Below are positions 23,834-32,858 of a stretch of 37,174 nt of DNA, in pieces. The DNA is taken from NCBI GenBank assembly GCA_025453925.1, contig JALOPK010000004.1, positions 1 to 37,174 on the forward strand. Direction: 5' to 3'. The notes under the pieces are model-generated. The model had not been told where the DNA came from. It did no database searches and saw nothing but the letters and a program-made list of their open reading frames with translations. The position numbers and the translations under genes are program-made. Position 1 is the first letter of the stretch. Every line of letters begins with the position of its first letter. This DNA is from Candidatus Eiseniibacteriota bacterium. GTDB taxonomy: Bacteria > JAFGKV01.

Positions 23834-24008
23834 GGGGTACGACCGCCGACATCAAGACGGCCCCACGTCAGGTCGAGTCAGTCGTCATTGACATCCCCCC
23901 GGGTGACGCGGTGGTGTGTCAACTCGTCCAGGCGGGCAGAGTGAACCTTCTCCCGTTCCAAGTCATAGGCAAGGTGCGACACGTACCGGTCCACTCCAAG
24001 GGAGTCCC

Positions 24009-24593
24009 ATGAGCGACGATCACGATGAACGGCTTCTTCGGGAGTTCCAGTCCGGCGACGAGGGAGCGTTCGATCGATTGGTGCGTCGCCACCAGGACGT
24101 GATCTACCGCCTGGCCCTGCGGCACCTGTGCGACGAGGATCTGGCAGTGGAGGCGACACAGGAGGTGTTCATCCGTGCATGGAGGAAGTTGCCGCGATGG
24201 AAACCGGGGCCGGGAAGCGTCTTCACCTGGCCGTATCGAACGACCACCATGGTGTGCCGCGAACTCGGACGCGGGAGACAGCGACTTCGCCTGGGCAGAC
24301 CGCTGTGCGACGTCGGGGATATCCCCGACGACCGCGGGCTCCTGGCGCGTGACACCGAGGAAGCTGTGGCACGGCTCCAATCCCTTGTGAGACGGCTCCC
24401 TCCGCGGCAGCAGGATGTGGTCTGGCTCCATGCCTATGAAGGCTTGGCCCTCAAAGACGTGGCTGCTGCTCTCGGCATTCCTCTGGGAACCGTGAAGAGC
24501 AACTACCATAAGGCCCTCTGTTCGCTAAGGGTGTGGTGGAGCATCCTCGATGATGCCGGGATGTCGGTTCCACCAACGGGAGGTGTCCGGTGA
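24009..24593 (+). CDS. ECF-type RNA polymerase sigma factor (cassette 1)
   Basis: MSDDHDERLLREFQSGDEGAFDRLVRRHQDVIYRLALRHL...EATQEVFIRAWRKLPRW (sigma2) and LPPRQQDVVWLHAYEGLALKDVAAALGIPLGTVKSNYHKAL (sigma4); GGGAG upstream. Confidence 0.92.
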   Translation: MSDDHDERLLREFQSGDEGAFDRLVRRHQDVIYRLALRHLCDEDLAVEATQEVFIRAWRKLPRWKPGPGSVFTWPYRTTTMVCRELGRGRQRLRLGRPLCDVGDIPDDRGLLARDTEEAVARLQSLVRRLPPRQQDVVWLHAYEGLALKDVAAALGIPLGTVKSNYHKALCSLRVWWSILDDAGMSVPPTGGVR

Positions 24594-25624: not shown

Positions 25625-25861
25625 ACCCCCCTCTTCGCACACCCATCGTCCGAAATCGGACAGCCTCGTCCTTTCCCGCCTGCGTGTGCGCCCCAGTTGC
25701 CCTGCCAGTCCGATATGTGATGCCGTGCATCCCACGACCATGAGGCGTTGTCGAGGCCCATGGGCGTGGTTCTTGCTGAGATAACCCACACTGTGTATGG
25801 CAGGTGGGCTCGCGTTCATGCAGTGCGCGATAGACCTGGTTCGCGTCCCTTGAGCAAGGAG

Positions 25862-27724
25862 ATGGTGATGAGATCAATGCTGTGGGTGTGCGGCGGTTGT
25901 TCCCTCCTGATCATGACTGCCGCCTCCTTCGCCGACACCGTACCATTCGATTCCCCACAGTGGGTGCTGGAGAACACCGAGATAGTCGAGCACCTGGGCA
26001 GAACAAGCCTGAAGGGCGCGGCATACCTGCCCGATGTGGAGTTCGCGAATGGGATCATCGAGGTGGATCTGGCGGTAACCAATGACCGTTCCTATCCGGG
26101 AATCATGTTCCGGCGGCACTCCGACGGGAACTACGAGGAGTTCTACATGAGGCCGCACCGATCGAAGTTCTACCCCGATGTACTCCAGTATGCGCCGACC
26201 TTCAACGGCATCTCCGAGTGGCAACTCTACAGTGGCCCCGGCTTCACCGCGGGGGCCGTTCTCCCGCGGGATCAGTGGATCCACCTCAGGCTGGAGGTGC
26301 TCGGCAGCCAGGCCCGGGTGTTCATCGACTCGGCCGCGACGCCTGCCCTGGAGATCCCTGAGCTCCAGCACGGCGTCAGTCGGGGAGCTATCGGCCTCAC
26401 AGGTCCGCGAGACGGCACTGCGCACTTCTCGAACTTCCGCTACGAGCTGACCGACAGCCTCGGCTTCGATCCTCCCGATGTGCGAGGTGCGCCCTACGGC
26501 ATGATCGCCGACTGGGAGTTGACGCAAGCGTTCAACGCGGGGCAGGTCGACCTGGAGCGAACGCCTGAGGCGCAGGGTCTCTCGGGCATCGTGTGGACGC
26601 CGGTGCGAGCCCTCTCCACGGGGCTCGTCGACATCGCGAGGCACACGGGGAGAACGACCAGAGTGGCGGACTGCGTTTTCGCCCGCACCACCATCCGGTC
26701 CGAGCAATTGCGCACGATGCGGCTGCGCTTCGGCTACAGTGACGCGGTGACCGTCTTCCTCAATGGTTCACCCGTCTTCTCAGGAAGCAGCACGTATCAA
26801 GGCAGGGACCCCTCATTCCTCGGAATCGTCGGGCTCAACGATGAGGTCTACCTGCCGCTTCTCGAGGGTGAGAACGAACTGGTGTGTGCGGTCGCTGAGT
26901 CGTTCGGGGGTTGGGGGTTCATGTGCCAGGACGCTGACGCTGTTTTCGTGCACAATGCGCTGAGCGCGGCCTGGGAGCTCCCCCGTACGCTGCGGATGCC
27001 CGAGTCTGTCGTGTACGATCCCGCGCGCGACGTCCTCTATGTCTCCAACTACTTCAACGACGGTCAGGAGTTCCTCTCGAAGTTCCGGCCTGATGGTACG
27101 CTCGAGATCCTGGAATGGGTCACAGGACTCAACATGCCCACAGGGCTGTGCCTTAGGGGCGACACCCTCTACGTGGCAGAGCGCAGGACAATCGCCAAGG
27201 TCGACGTCACTACTGGTGTGGTCACAGCGCATGTTCCCGTTCCCGACGCGGTATTCCTCAACGATCTCGACTTCGATGCCGAGGGCAGCCTCTACGTGTC
27301 GGACTCCCGCGGCAACAAGGTGCACCGGCTCAAGGGCGGGGTGTTTGAGACATGGCTGGAGGCAGGCGAGATCCGCGACCCCAACGGGCTTTGCATCGAC
27401 GGTAACGAACTGCTGCTGGGTAACTCCGGTGATGGCTCGCTGAAGGCTATCGATCTGTCCACGAAGGAGATCCGCACCGTCGCCCGATTCGGAGCGGGGT
27501 CCGTCATGGACGGGCTTCACCTTGACGGCCGGGACAACTACCTCGTGTCCGACTTCAATGGCCGGCTCTTCAGGGTATCGCCGGGCGGTGCAACCGAGCT
27601 CCTGTTGAATACCTCTGCCCCACAGCGTTTCTGCGCGGACTTCGCGTACATCCGTGAGTTGAAGCTGCTCGTGATTCCGACCCTGTACGACAACCAAGTG
27701 ATCGCGTATCATGCGGATCTGTGA
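25862..27724 (+). CDS. Secreted two-domain protein: LamG/DUF1080-like N-terminal region plus SMP-30/NHL-like beta-propeller C-terminal region
   Basis: Signal peptide; GIIEVDLAVTNDRSYPGIMFRRHSDGNYEEFYMRPH...QWIHLRLEVLGSQARVFID (concanavalin-like); LYVADRR-type strands such as DTLYVAERRTIAKVDVTTG, NDLDFDAEGSLYVSDSRGNKVHRL, DPNGLCIDGNELLLGNSGDGSLKAID. Confidence 0.75.
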   Translation: MVMRSMLWVCGGCSLLIMTAASFADTVPFDSPQWVLENTEIVEHLGRTSLKGAAYLPDVEFANGIIEVDLAVTNDRSYPGIMFRRHSDGNYEEFYMRPHRSKFYPDVLQYAPTFNGISEWQLYSGPGFTAGAVLPRDQWIHLRLEVLGSQARVFIDSAATPALEIPELQHGVSRGAIGLTGPRDGTAHFSNFRYELTDSLGFDPPDVRGAPYGMIADWELTQAFNAGQVDLERTPEAQGLSGIVWTPVRALSTGLVDIARHTGRTTRVADCVFARTTIRSEQLRTMRLRFGYSDAVTVFLNGSPVFSGSSTYQGRDPSFLGIVGLNDEVYLPLLEGENELVCAVAESFGGWGFMCQDADAVFVHNALSAAWELPRTLRMPESVVYDPARDVLYVSNYFNDGQEFLSKFRPDGTLEILEWVTGLNMPTGLCLRGDTLYVAERRTIAKVDVTTGVVTAHVPVPDAVFLNDLDFDAEGSLYVSDSRGNKVHRLKGGVFETWLEAGEIRDPNGLCIDGNELLLGNSGDGSLKAIDLSTKEIRTVARFGAGSVMDGLHLDGRDNYLVSDFNGRLFRVSPGGATELLLNTSAPQRFCADFAYIRELKLLVIPTLYDNQVIAYHADL

Positions 27725-29722: not shown

Positions 29723-32046
29723 CTACGGGATGTCCGCCTCGAAGTCGGCTTCGCCAACACGGTTGGAGATGGCAAGGACTGCTTCCGCCGCATCCACCGC
29801 CATGACCAGGTAGGTCCATTCAATAGCGGCATCACCGACTCCATTCGAGCTGGACCACGTCGTCGTTGTGGAGGGGAGAACGGTGATTCGGAACTGATAG
29901 CCTGGGCCGCTGCCCGGCACGAACCAGGGCAGGCCGGAGGCGCCATAGACCCAGTAGTCATGCGTCCCCGTCACCGAGTTCCACGTGAGCTGCACTGCGC
30001 CGCCCGCCAGCACCCCGTTGAGCTGGAACATCTGGGGCCCAATCATCCGTGCGTACTTGAGATCATTGTTCGTCTCATCCCGGTAACTGATGTGCGGATA
30101 GCCGAGGCTGTCCAGTTCCAGGGAAGTCCACGAACCTACCTGCGCCTGGGAGTCTACGGTCTGCAGGCGCCAGCCCGATGTGTCTTGGTATGCATATCTC
30201 AGATCGTCGTTCGTTTCGTCGTGGTAGCTGATGTGAGCAAAACCCAACGCGTCTAGCGCCAGCGATGTGAACGTGCCCACGTTGCCCCCCGCATCCACGG
30301 TCTCGGCGTGCCAGCCCGCCGCGTCGCGGTAGGCGTATTTCAAGTCGTCGCTCGTGTCGTCGAAATAGCTGATGTGGGGCTCGCCTGACCCGTCCAGGGC
30401 GAGCGAGGTATGCCAGCCCACGTCTCCCAGCGCATCCACGGTTTCGGTGTGCCAGCCAGAGGCATCACGATAGGCGTACTTGAGATCGCACTCACCATTC
30501 TCCCCCCCGGCACAATAGCTGATGCGGGGCTGTTCCGAGGCGTCCAGGTCCAATGAGGGGTAGTAGCCTACGTTCCCCCCCGCCGCGTCCACGACCCCGG
30601 TGTGCCAGCCGGATGCATCCTGGTACGTGTACTTCAGAGTGCGGTTCCCCTGGTCGTGGTGGCTGATGTGGGCCCAGCCCCATCGATCCAGGGCCAGCGA
30701 CGTGCACAGGCCAACCTCCGACGGTGAGGCGTTCGCGGTGTCGGTGTGCCAGGCTGTGGCACTGCGGCAGGCGTACTTCAGGTCGTAGCCCGGGTAGGCG
30801 TTGTAGTAGCTGACGGCGGGATACCCTGAGTCGTCCAGCGCGAGGGAGGTCCACCGCCCCACATCCCCCGCCTCATCCGCCCTTTCGGTGTGCCAGCCGG
30901 AAAGGTCACGGTTTGCGTACTTGAGGTCCCCCCTCTGCTCATCGTAGTAGCTGATGTGGGGTCGACCTGATCCATCCAAGGCCAACGAGGTGTGCGACCC
31001 CACATCCCCTTCCGCATCAACGGTCTGGATGTGCCATCCCGAGTCGTCCTGGCACGCGTACTTGAGACCCCCGTAGCTGATATGCGGATAGCCCGCATCA
31101 TCCAAAACCAGAGAGGTGTGCGTGCCACCCTCCACATCCACAGTCCGGATGTGCCAGCCGACCGTATCCTCGTAGGCATACTTCAGATTATCGGTGGAGC
31201 CGTTCCAGCTGAGGTAGCTGATGTGTGCATGGCCCAAGGCGTCCACGATAAGGGTGAAACGTCTAGCGCAAGCGACGTGTACCAGCTCCCATCCCCCGCG
31301 GAATCCACCGTCTCGAGGTGCCAAACAGTCGAGTCTCTGCGCGCGTGCTTGAGGTAACCGTTCGTGTAGTCATGGTAGCTGATATGCGGGTTGCCTGAAA
31401 CGTCTAGGGCAAGGGACGTGTACCAGCCAACGTGGCCGTCAGAGTCGATAGTCTCAACGTGCCATCCCTCAGCATCCTCGCATGCGTACTTGAGATCGTG
31501 GTTCGTGTGGTCGTAGTAGCTGATGTGGGGATTGCCTGAGGTATCCAAGGATAGGGAGGTGTAGAAGCCCACACTACCTGTCGAGTCGATGGTCTCCAGG
31601 TGCCAGCCACTGGCATCACGCCACGCGTACTTCAGATCGGAGTTCGTGCCGTCGTAGTAGCTGATGTGGGGCCACCCCGAGGCGTCAAGGGAGTTCGTGC
31701 CGTCGTAGTAGCTGATGTGGGGCCACCCCGAGGCGTCAAGGGCCAACGACGCACTCCAACCCACATCCTGCGACCAGTCCGCCACCTCGTAGTGCCACGA
31801 TGTCCCGTCGTGGAAAGCGTAGTACAGGTGATCCTGTCCGTAGGCAAGGTGGGGGCGACCCGCCTCGTCGATACGAAGACATCTGTCGGTCATGCCGTCG
31901 ATCTGCTTCCCGTACTCCACCACCTCGATCTCCCAGGTCTGAGCGAGGGCTGGGTCTACGCCCAGGGAGGAAGACAGGACGACGGACAACAGGGAGAGGA
32001 AGGTCCGGGAACGTTGGCGGTACTGGCGTGAATACGAAGGATTCAT
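29723..32046 (-). pseudogene. Secreted tandem-repeat (probable beta-propeller) protein interrupted by a frameshift
   Basis: ORFs 31183-32310 and 29723-31324 carry one continuous series of about 12 x 47-aa repeats (SLALDxSGxPHISYYDxTNxDLKYAxxDxSGWHxETVDxxGxVGxYT). Frame change is explained by a 20-bp insertion at 31241-31260. Start ATG at 32046 (MNPSYSRQYRQRSRTFLSLLSVVLSSSLGVDPALAQ signal peptide). Confidence 0.85.
31640..31741. repeat. Perfect 51-bp tandem duplication (two copies: 31640-31690, 31691-31741)
   Basis: gagttcgtgccgtcgtagtagctgatgtggggccaccccgaggcgtcaagg occurs twice head to tail; encodes LDASGWPHISYYDGTNS twice, in frame. Confidence 0.98.
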
Positions 32047-32303: not shown

Positions 32304-32858
32304 GTGACACCTGACCTGGATCAACTGGCGCTCAGTCTGAAGATGGGAGACATCGAATCCCTGAAGGAGCTGATCGATTTGCTCACCAGGAGGCTTATCG
32401 CCGTGGCGTATCGATACACCGCTGATTGGGAGATGGCCCGCGATCTCACGCAGGATACGTGGCTCAAGGTACTCCAGTCCATCCATCGGTACGATCCCTC
32501 CCGGCCATTCGAGCAATGGCTGGCCACGATCCACCGCAACGGCTGCATCTCCTACCTGCGGCGATCGTCGCGCCGTATGGAACAACCTGAACCGGCCGAT
32601 GTGATCGAGAGGGCAGCAGATACTGTCGCGGACGGGCCGGGGCGTGACCTTGAATCACGCGAGTTTGCCGCCCGGCTCGCCGGCGCCGTGCGCCGTCTGA
32701 GTCGCAGGCAGCAGGAGGTCTTCAGCTTGGTCGATCTGGATGAGGTGCCGCAGGCGGAGGCTGCGCGAACGCTGCATATGAAGCCGACCACCCTGCGGAG
32801 CACGCTGCATGCCGCACGACGACGCTTAGCCTCACGGCTCAGTCACGGAGAGGTGTGA
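32304..32858 (+). CDS. ECF-type RNA polymerase sigma factor (cassette 2)
   Basis: MARDLTQDTWLKVLQSIHRYDPSRPFEQWLATIHRNGCISYLRR (sigma2) and RRLSRRQQEVFSLVDLDEVPQAEAARTLHMKPTTLRSTLHAARRRLA (sigma4). Confidence 0.92.
   Translation: MTPDLDQLALSLKMGDIESLKELIDLLTRRLIAVAYRYTADWEMARDLTQDTWLKVLQSIHRYDPSRPFEQWLATIHRNGCISYLRRSSRRMEQPEPADVIERAADTVADGPGRDLESREFAARLAGAVRRLSRRQQEVFSLVDLDEVPQAEAARTLHMKPTTLRSTLHAARRRLASRLSHGEV

Follow-up and report, generated by a model that had tools for sequence, protein, structure and literature searches.

What does an array of tandem 47-amino acid (aa) repeats, interrupted halfway by a change of reading frame, encode? Such an array occupies positions 29723-32046 (minus strand) of the DNA stretch analyzed here (37,174 nucleotides in full length; hereafter the window), which derives from a metagenome-assembled genome (MAG) of Candidatus Fermentibacteria. 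A preliminary description of the sequence had proposed a single oversized beta-propeller that might belong to a variable surface system. The analysis presented below indicates instead that it encodes a protein from an expanded family with two seven-bladed propellers in tandem, in a copy that is either damaged or wrongly assembled.

The blade array and its relatives

The features identified within the gene are listed below (all on the minus strand).

29723..32046, minus: whole gene, predicted to encode a secreted two-propeller protein with a C-terminal module; contains a mid-frame break (ORFs, translation)
31942..32046, minus: signal peptide of approximately 35 aa with putative cut ALA / QTWEIEV (read from the sequence)
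31909..31935, minus: N-terminal half-blade WEIEVVEYG (profile positions 30-41; same arrangement in relatives)
31756..31878, minus: blade 1, a short form conserved in 14-blade paralogues (best match is blade 1 of the paralogues)
31561..31749, minus: blade 2, longer through the 51-bp duplication (TRF and HMM)
31639..31742, minus: 51-bp tandem duplication (TRF: 2.0 copies, 100% match; in frame, adds 17 aa)
31420..31560, minus: blade 3 (HMM E 8e-25)
31279..31419, minus: blade 4 (HMM E 1e-21)
31241..31278, minus: junction, passing from TSLALDVS out of frame to TLIVDALG (blade starts 20 bp apart)
31127..31252, minus: blade after the junction, in the second frame (HMM E 1e-12)
30044..31117, minus: eight more blades, the last being a half-blade (HMM E 1e-11 to 2e-25)
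29726..30022, minus: C-terminal module of 99 aa, last residues SNRVGEADFEADIP (63 aligned copies, three genomes)

The first frame (31183-32046), starting with an ATG at 32046, codes for 287 aa and comprises a signal-like start, four full blades and the beginning of a fifth, while the second (29726-31324; stop at 29723) covers the rest of the array together with the C-terminal region. When the two were compared with a blade profile, nine blades plus the C-terminal module were found in one frame and five blade matches in the other. An HMM trained on the 47-aa unit, the type of profile search that had been suggested earlier, recovered the blades, and most domain E-values lay in the range from 1e-11 to 1e-25, which places the array far beyond chance. 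The repeat period is 47 aa, and each unit folds into four strands in predicted models. As assembled, 13 units are visible (with the partial duplicate merged), and 14 if one blade is taken to have been lost at the junction. The tandem propeller repeats, the N-terminal signal peptide of a secreted protein (judged by reading the sequence), the disrupted frame and the exact, in-frame 51-bp duplication all agree with the preliminary description. The C-terminal region had been described as FnIII-like; no FnIII model of Pfam or NCBIfam matched these approximately 99 residues.

About 20 blade-bearing paralogues of the window protein were detected in the source genome. Further relatives are present in two sister genomes, G001 (Zod_Metabat.355, same genus) and G002 (CSMAG_2897, same family), and weaker ones in several other lineages; a scan of named genomes with the single protein as query gave no sequence match. 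Direct counting in complete relatives revealed 14 blades in eleven proteins and 7 in nine or more, and several more arrive at one of these two numbers if a gap of double length is read as one missed blade. An intact 14-blade member is encoded at L127:4639-7080 in Zod_Metabat.355. The repeat number, the earlier suggestion of variability notwithstanding, is mostly held at 7 or 14 in intact relatives, the exceptions being two proteins with 13 blades and single proteins with 9 and 5. The relatives begin with a half-blade (W-I-E-V type) and also finish with one. A half-blade at each chain end is the usual means of closing a propeller ring; in the window protein, the C-terminal half-blade spans 28 profile positions and pairs with the N-terminal half-blade WEIEVVEYG in this manner.

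Searches of Pfam, NCBIfam and PDB sequences with the window protein returned only sub-threshold or irrelevant matches; PDB profile matches to designed TIM barrels were rejected as an artefact of repetitiveness. The family, poorly covered by Pfam and present in about 20 copies in one genome, mostly holds its blade number while its sequence and C-termini vary. A second probable propeller protein (SGL / NHL matches) is encoded close to the array gene, at positions 25748-27724 of the window.

A separate observation concerns two orthologous blade proteins from different species, L016 (G000:C233:3-983) and L071 (G001:C231:227-2008, minus strand), whose genes share an in-frame TGA at equivalent sites. 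The codon falls within the linker that follows blade 4 (VDPPPS*GQDRAHSSLALDG in L016 and ADVPPGG*VVYGEHSSLALDG in L071) and, in L071, it is surrounded by 4+3 = 7 blades. Upstream and downstream of the TGA alike, the two genes differ mostly at third codon positions; the preceding blade has a conserved Cys as well. SelB scored over the cut-off in these genomes; RNA folding downstream of the conserved TGA showed no unusual stability. The pair may be regarded as a candidate for either UGA recoding or a split gene.

The frame break and the question of variation

The frame is disrupted at a 20-bp segment (31241-31260) that is unique within the window. This segment had been described as an insertion; it is indeed present, but the term is probably wrong. 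Consecutive blades of this gene start 126-150 bp apart (mostly 141 bp), whereas SLALDVS and TLIVDALG at the junction are separated by 20 bp. The left flank of the junction is identical to the start of the preceding blade (blade 4) at 30 of 32 nucleotides, after which the two sequences diverge abruptly. A random 20-bp insertion would have to continue the previous blade on one side and supply the start of a fitting strand on the other. As judged from the sequence, the loss of approximately 121 bp from one 141-bp blade probably fits the junction better than a 20-bp gain: it would explain both edges and would set the original blade number at 14.

As assembled, this copy is unable to make the full protein, and it is either a pseudogene (or decaying copy) or the product of an assembly error. 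We infer decay, in the course of which (i) most of one blade would have been lost out of frame and (ii) an exact 51-bp partial blade would have been gained. The median blade-to-blade identity of the window copy (53.6%) is the highest among the 14-blade proteins compared, which is consistent with recent exchange among blades and a tendency to gain or lose pieces. New copies in the family may have arisen by gene duplication combined with such exchange among similar blades.

Assembly error is a serious rival of decay, given that the source genome is a short-read MAG of 502 contigs that is 82% complete. According to this explanation the true gene encodes an intact 14-blade protein, and both the break and the 51-bp repeat were created when short reads of a repetitive gene were assembled. 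The contig names of a sister genome point to a short-read assembler run with k=87, several blade genes are located at contig ends, and a single gene holds both anomalies. On the other hand, each anomaly is below or near read length, and other full-length paralogues were assembled in the same MAG without such breaks. We consider an artefact a real possibility, though one that falls somewhat short of an even chance.

A further rival is a phase- or antigen-variable surface protein, in which changes in repeat number and frameshifting switch the product on and off or alter its face; the preliminary description had raised variability as a possibility. The high internal repeat identity and the exact 51-bp duplication would suit such a protein. 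Of three homopolymers with 7 bases or more found in the whole window, two lie in the gene, and this is the only hint of slippage. These two tracts, the longest in the gene (7 bases each; a mild excess), lie away from the break, and the reading frame continues uninterrupted through each. No simple-sequence repeat, and hence no slippable tract, was found at 31241-31260, while the 51-bp change preserves the frame and intact relatives are mostly fixed at 7 or 14 blades. A search for a second allele identified none (apart from the gene itself, the best match reached 64% within the source genome and 54% elsewhere in the genus). The species was not represented by any further genome, and the lineage is an uncultured one without a known host. 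A variable system is therefore highly unlikely.

The array gene had also been linked to a neighboring gene for an ECF sigma factor. The presence of this gene (32304-32858) was confirmed by matches to Sigma70_r2 and r4_2, and it is followed by a gene for a zf-HC2 anti-sigma-like protein. However, this neighbor is not conserved: the sigma factor has no close counterpart in either sister genome, where its matches did not exceed 32% identity, and no sigma-like ORF was observed in the other blade loci fetched, many of which have short flanks. ECF sigma control of the blade family was consequently dropped. The 37-kb window contains a second ECF-type sigma gene (23916-24590), and there are approximately ten or more ECF-like matches per Fermentibacteria genome.

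Ring architecture and probable ligand

The question of one ring or two was addressed with the relatives of the window protein. In the eleven 14-blade proteins, blade 7 clearly scores lowest of the internal blades (mean of 27.7 bits, with 42-58 bits for the remaining ones), with a within-protein permutation p of about 1e-4 (6e-4 without one orthologue), values that are approximate for proteins related to each other. The window copy departs from this pattern, its weakest full blade occupying a position other than 7. An AlphaFold2 model of a 14-blade relative (L127) has confident blades, and its confidence falls below 50 at residues 330-334, between strands 2 and 3 of blade 7, which suggests the place where a second ring would start; this model was built from an alignment of four rows, has a pTM of 0.51 and leaves the C-terminal module unfolded.

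When the L127 model was compared with PDB structures using Foldseek, the best single-domain matches were seven-bladed PLL lectins (TM 0.71-0.75 over approximately 350 columns). The E-values for this fold, about 1e-11, refer to predicted models only. Multi-propeller proteins (e.g. BT4663 and Elp2) were matched as well. The model of the second frame of the window gene contains about nine blades and matches PLL lectins and BT3686; one of the higher TM scores it obtained was with a designed propeller, Cake10. The ring size seen in this second model was set aside, as a fragment may close on any blade number that it holds. No similarity at a lag of seven, the expected mark of a propeller duplicated as a whole, was detected among the blades.

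On this basis, we conclude that the intact 14-blade form makes two consecutive seven-bladed propellers, whereas 7-blade members of the family make one; the single oversized propeller proposed previously finds no support in the relatives, which mostly have 7 or 14 blades, or in the weak blade at the 7/14 seam. The intact form would consist of a signal peptide, 14 four-stranded blades arranged as two propellers and the C-terminal module, and in each ring, closure would come from pairing between the half-blades located at its two ends.

This architecture has a known precedent, which makes the repeat array an ordinary one. Natural propeller rings are reported to contain 4-12 blades. The WRAP domain of Nostoc Npun_R6612 (WD40 group) has 14 predicted blades that form a pair of seven-bladed propellers, and relatives of it interrupted by frameshifts or stops are on record (PMC9218822). 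It resembles the window family in blade number, in the division into two rings, in amplification at the level of blades and in the existence of disrupted relatives (PMC9218822). It differs in that its blades are of WD40 type, about 40 aa long and near-identical, and are carried on a STAND ATPase, whereas the window family has 47-aa blades of another sequence family, is secreted and ends in the C-terminal module. One giant ring of 12-14 blades, for which contiguous blades without an obvious linker might be cited, is scarcely tenable in view of the blade-7 seam, the free-standing 7-blade relatives, the match of half of the model to seven-bladed PDB structures, the natural range of ring sizes and the two rings of the 14-blade WRAP.

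The double propeller is probably an extracellular or surface-held binding platform, a localization that we infer. By analogy with its fold matches, its ligands are most likely glycans, which it would bind or, alternatively, process in the manner of propeller-type polysaccharide-acting proteins. This assignment is drawn from (i) the lectin and polysaccharide-acting fold matches and (ii) weak profile matches of BNR_4/BT3686 type in relatives. The PLL-type lectins (Photorhabdus PLL, PLL2, PLL3, PLL5 and PHL) are the best single-domain fold match (TM not above 0.75, over one ring), but they share 11-16% identity, and no significant sequence match emerged when the window protein was searched against the PDB. 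Among BNR_4/GH145-like propellers (PF15892, BT3686), BT3686 is one of the fold matches, at 17% identity. Pfam BNR_4 matched about half of the relatives weakly, exceeding the cut-off in three of those that were scanned individually, whereas the window protein itself had no match. A lectin-like fold of the blade proteins does not prove sugar binding. Taken as a whole, the reading of a secreted, glycan-related double-propeller family, with a decaying or mis-joined copy in the window, appears to us a likely one.

The C-terminal module

The 99-aa module is recognized by neither Pfam nor NCBIfam. A profile search counted 75, 62 and 44 copies in the three genomes of Fermentibacteria; each of 38 other genomes yielded one copy or none. 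It is a terminal element: in a first set of 63 aligned copies, 31 end at the last residue of the protein and 11 a single residue earlier, most of the others finish only a few residues short, and no tail exceeds 15 residues. Its carriers are diverse and include arylsulfotransferase-like, FG-GAP, PNGase F-like, phosphoesterase and beta-helix proteins. Apart from the window gene (29726-30022), the module with SNRVGExDF at or near the stop was found at loci L132 and L134-L137. Proteins of Chloroflexota also end in the module, with a near-identical SNRVGEFDF a few residues before the stop.

In some sister blade proteins, the position of the module at the C-terminus is taken by Por_Secre_tail or FlgD_ig, i.e. 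the type A sorting domain of type IX secretion (T9SS). The window module differs from this domain, ending in SNRVGExDFxxxIP, and neither Por_Secre_tail nor FlgD_ig was found in the window protein, which thus lacks the hallmark of T9SS type A cargo. The T9SS marker SprA is present in Fermentibacteria genomes, together with 20, 35 and 42 Por_Secre_tail matches. T9SS genes have been reported to be absent outside the FCB group (PMC11285876).

The module probably serves export or anchoring. It may represent a second signal for sorting or anchoring, or else a domain that is common at protein ends and has no function of this kind. In the former case, its alternation with type IX domains on similar propellers and its occurrence at the ends of Chloroflexota proteins would imply a reader other than, or additional to, T9SS. 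We propose only tentatively, as a possibility with appreciably less than an even chance, that it is an undescribed signal read by a system beyond or besides type IX secretion. A sorting signal of this kind would mark a large part of the secreted proteins in two poorly studied bacterial groups, and would provide a handle on their export or surface retention in both.

A similar type of C-terminus (SEPVGEFDYLQSIP) was noticed in an open-ended protein encoded at L127:11744-13036 (minus strand), the start of which resembles, by eye, the end of a C25-type peptidase.
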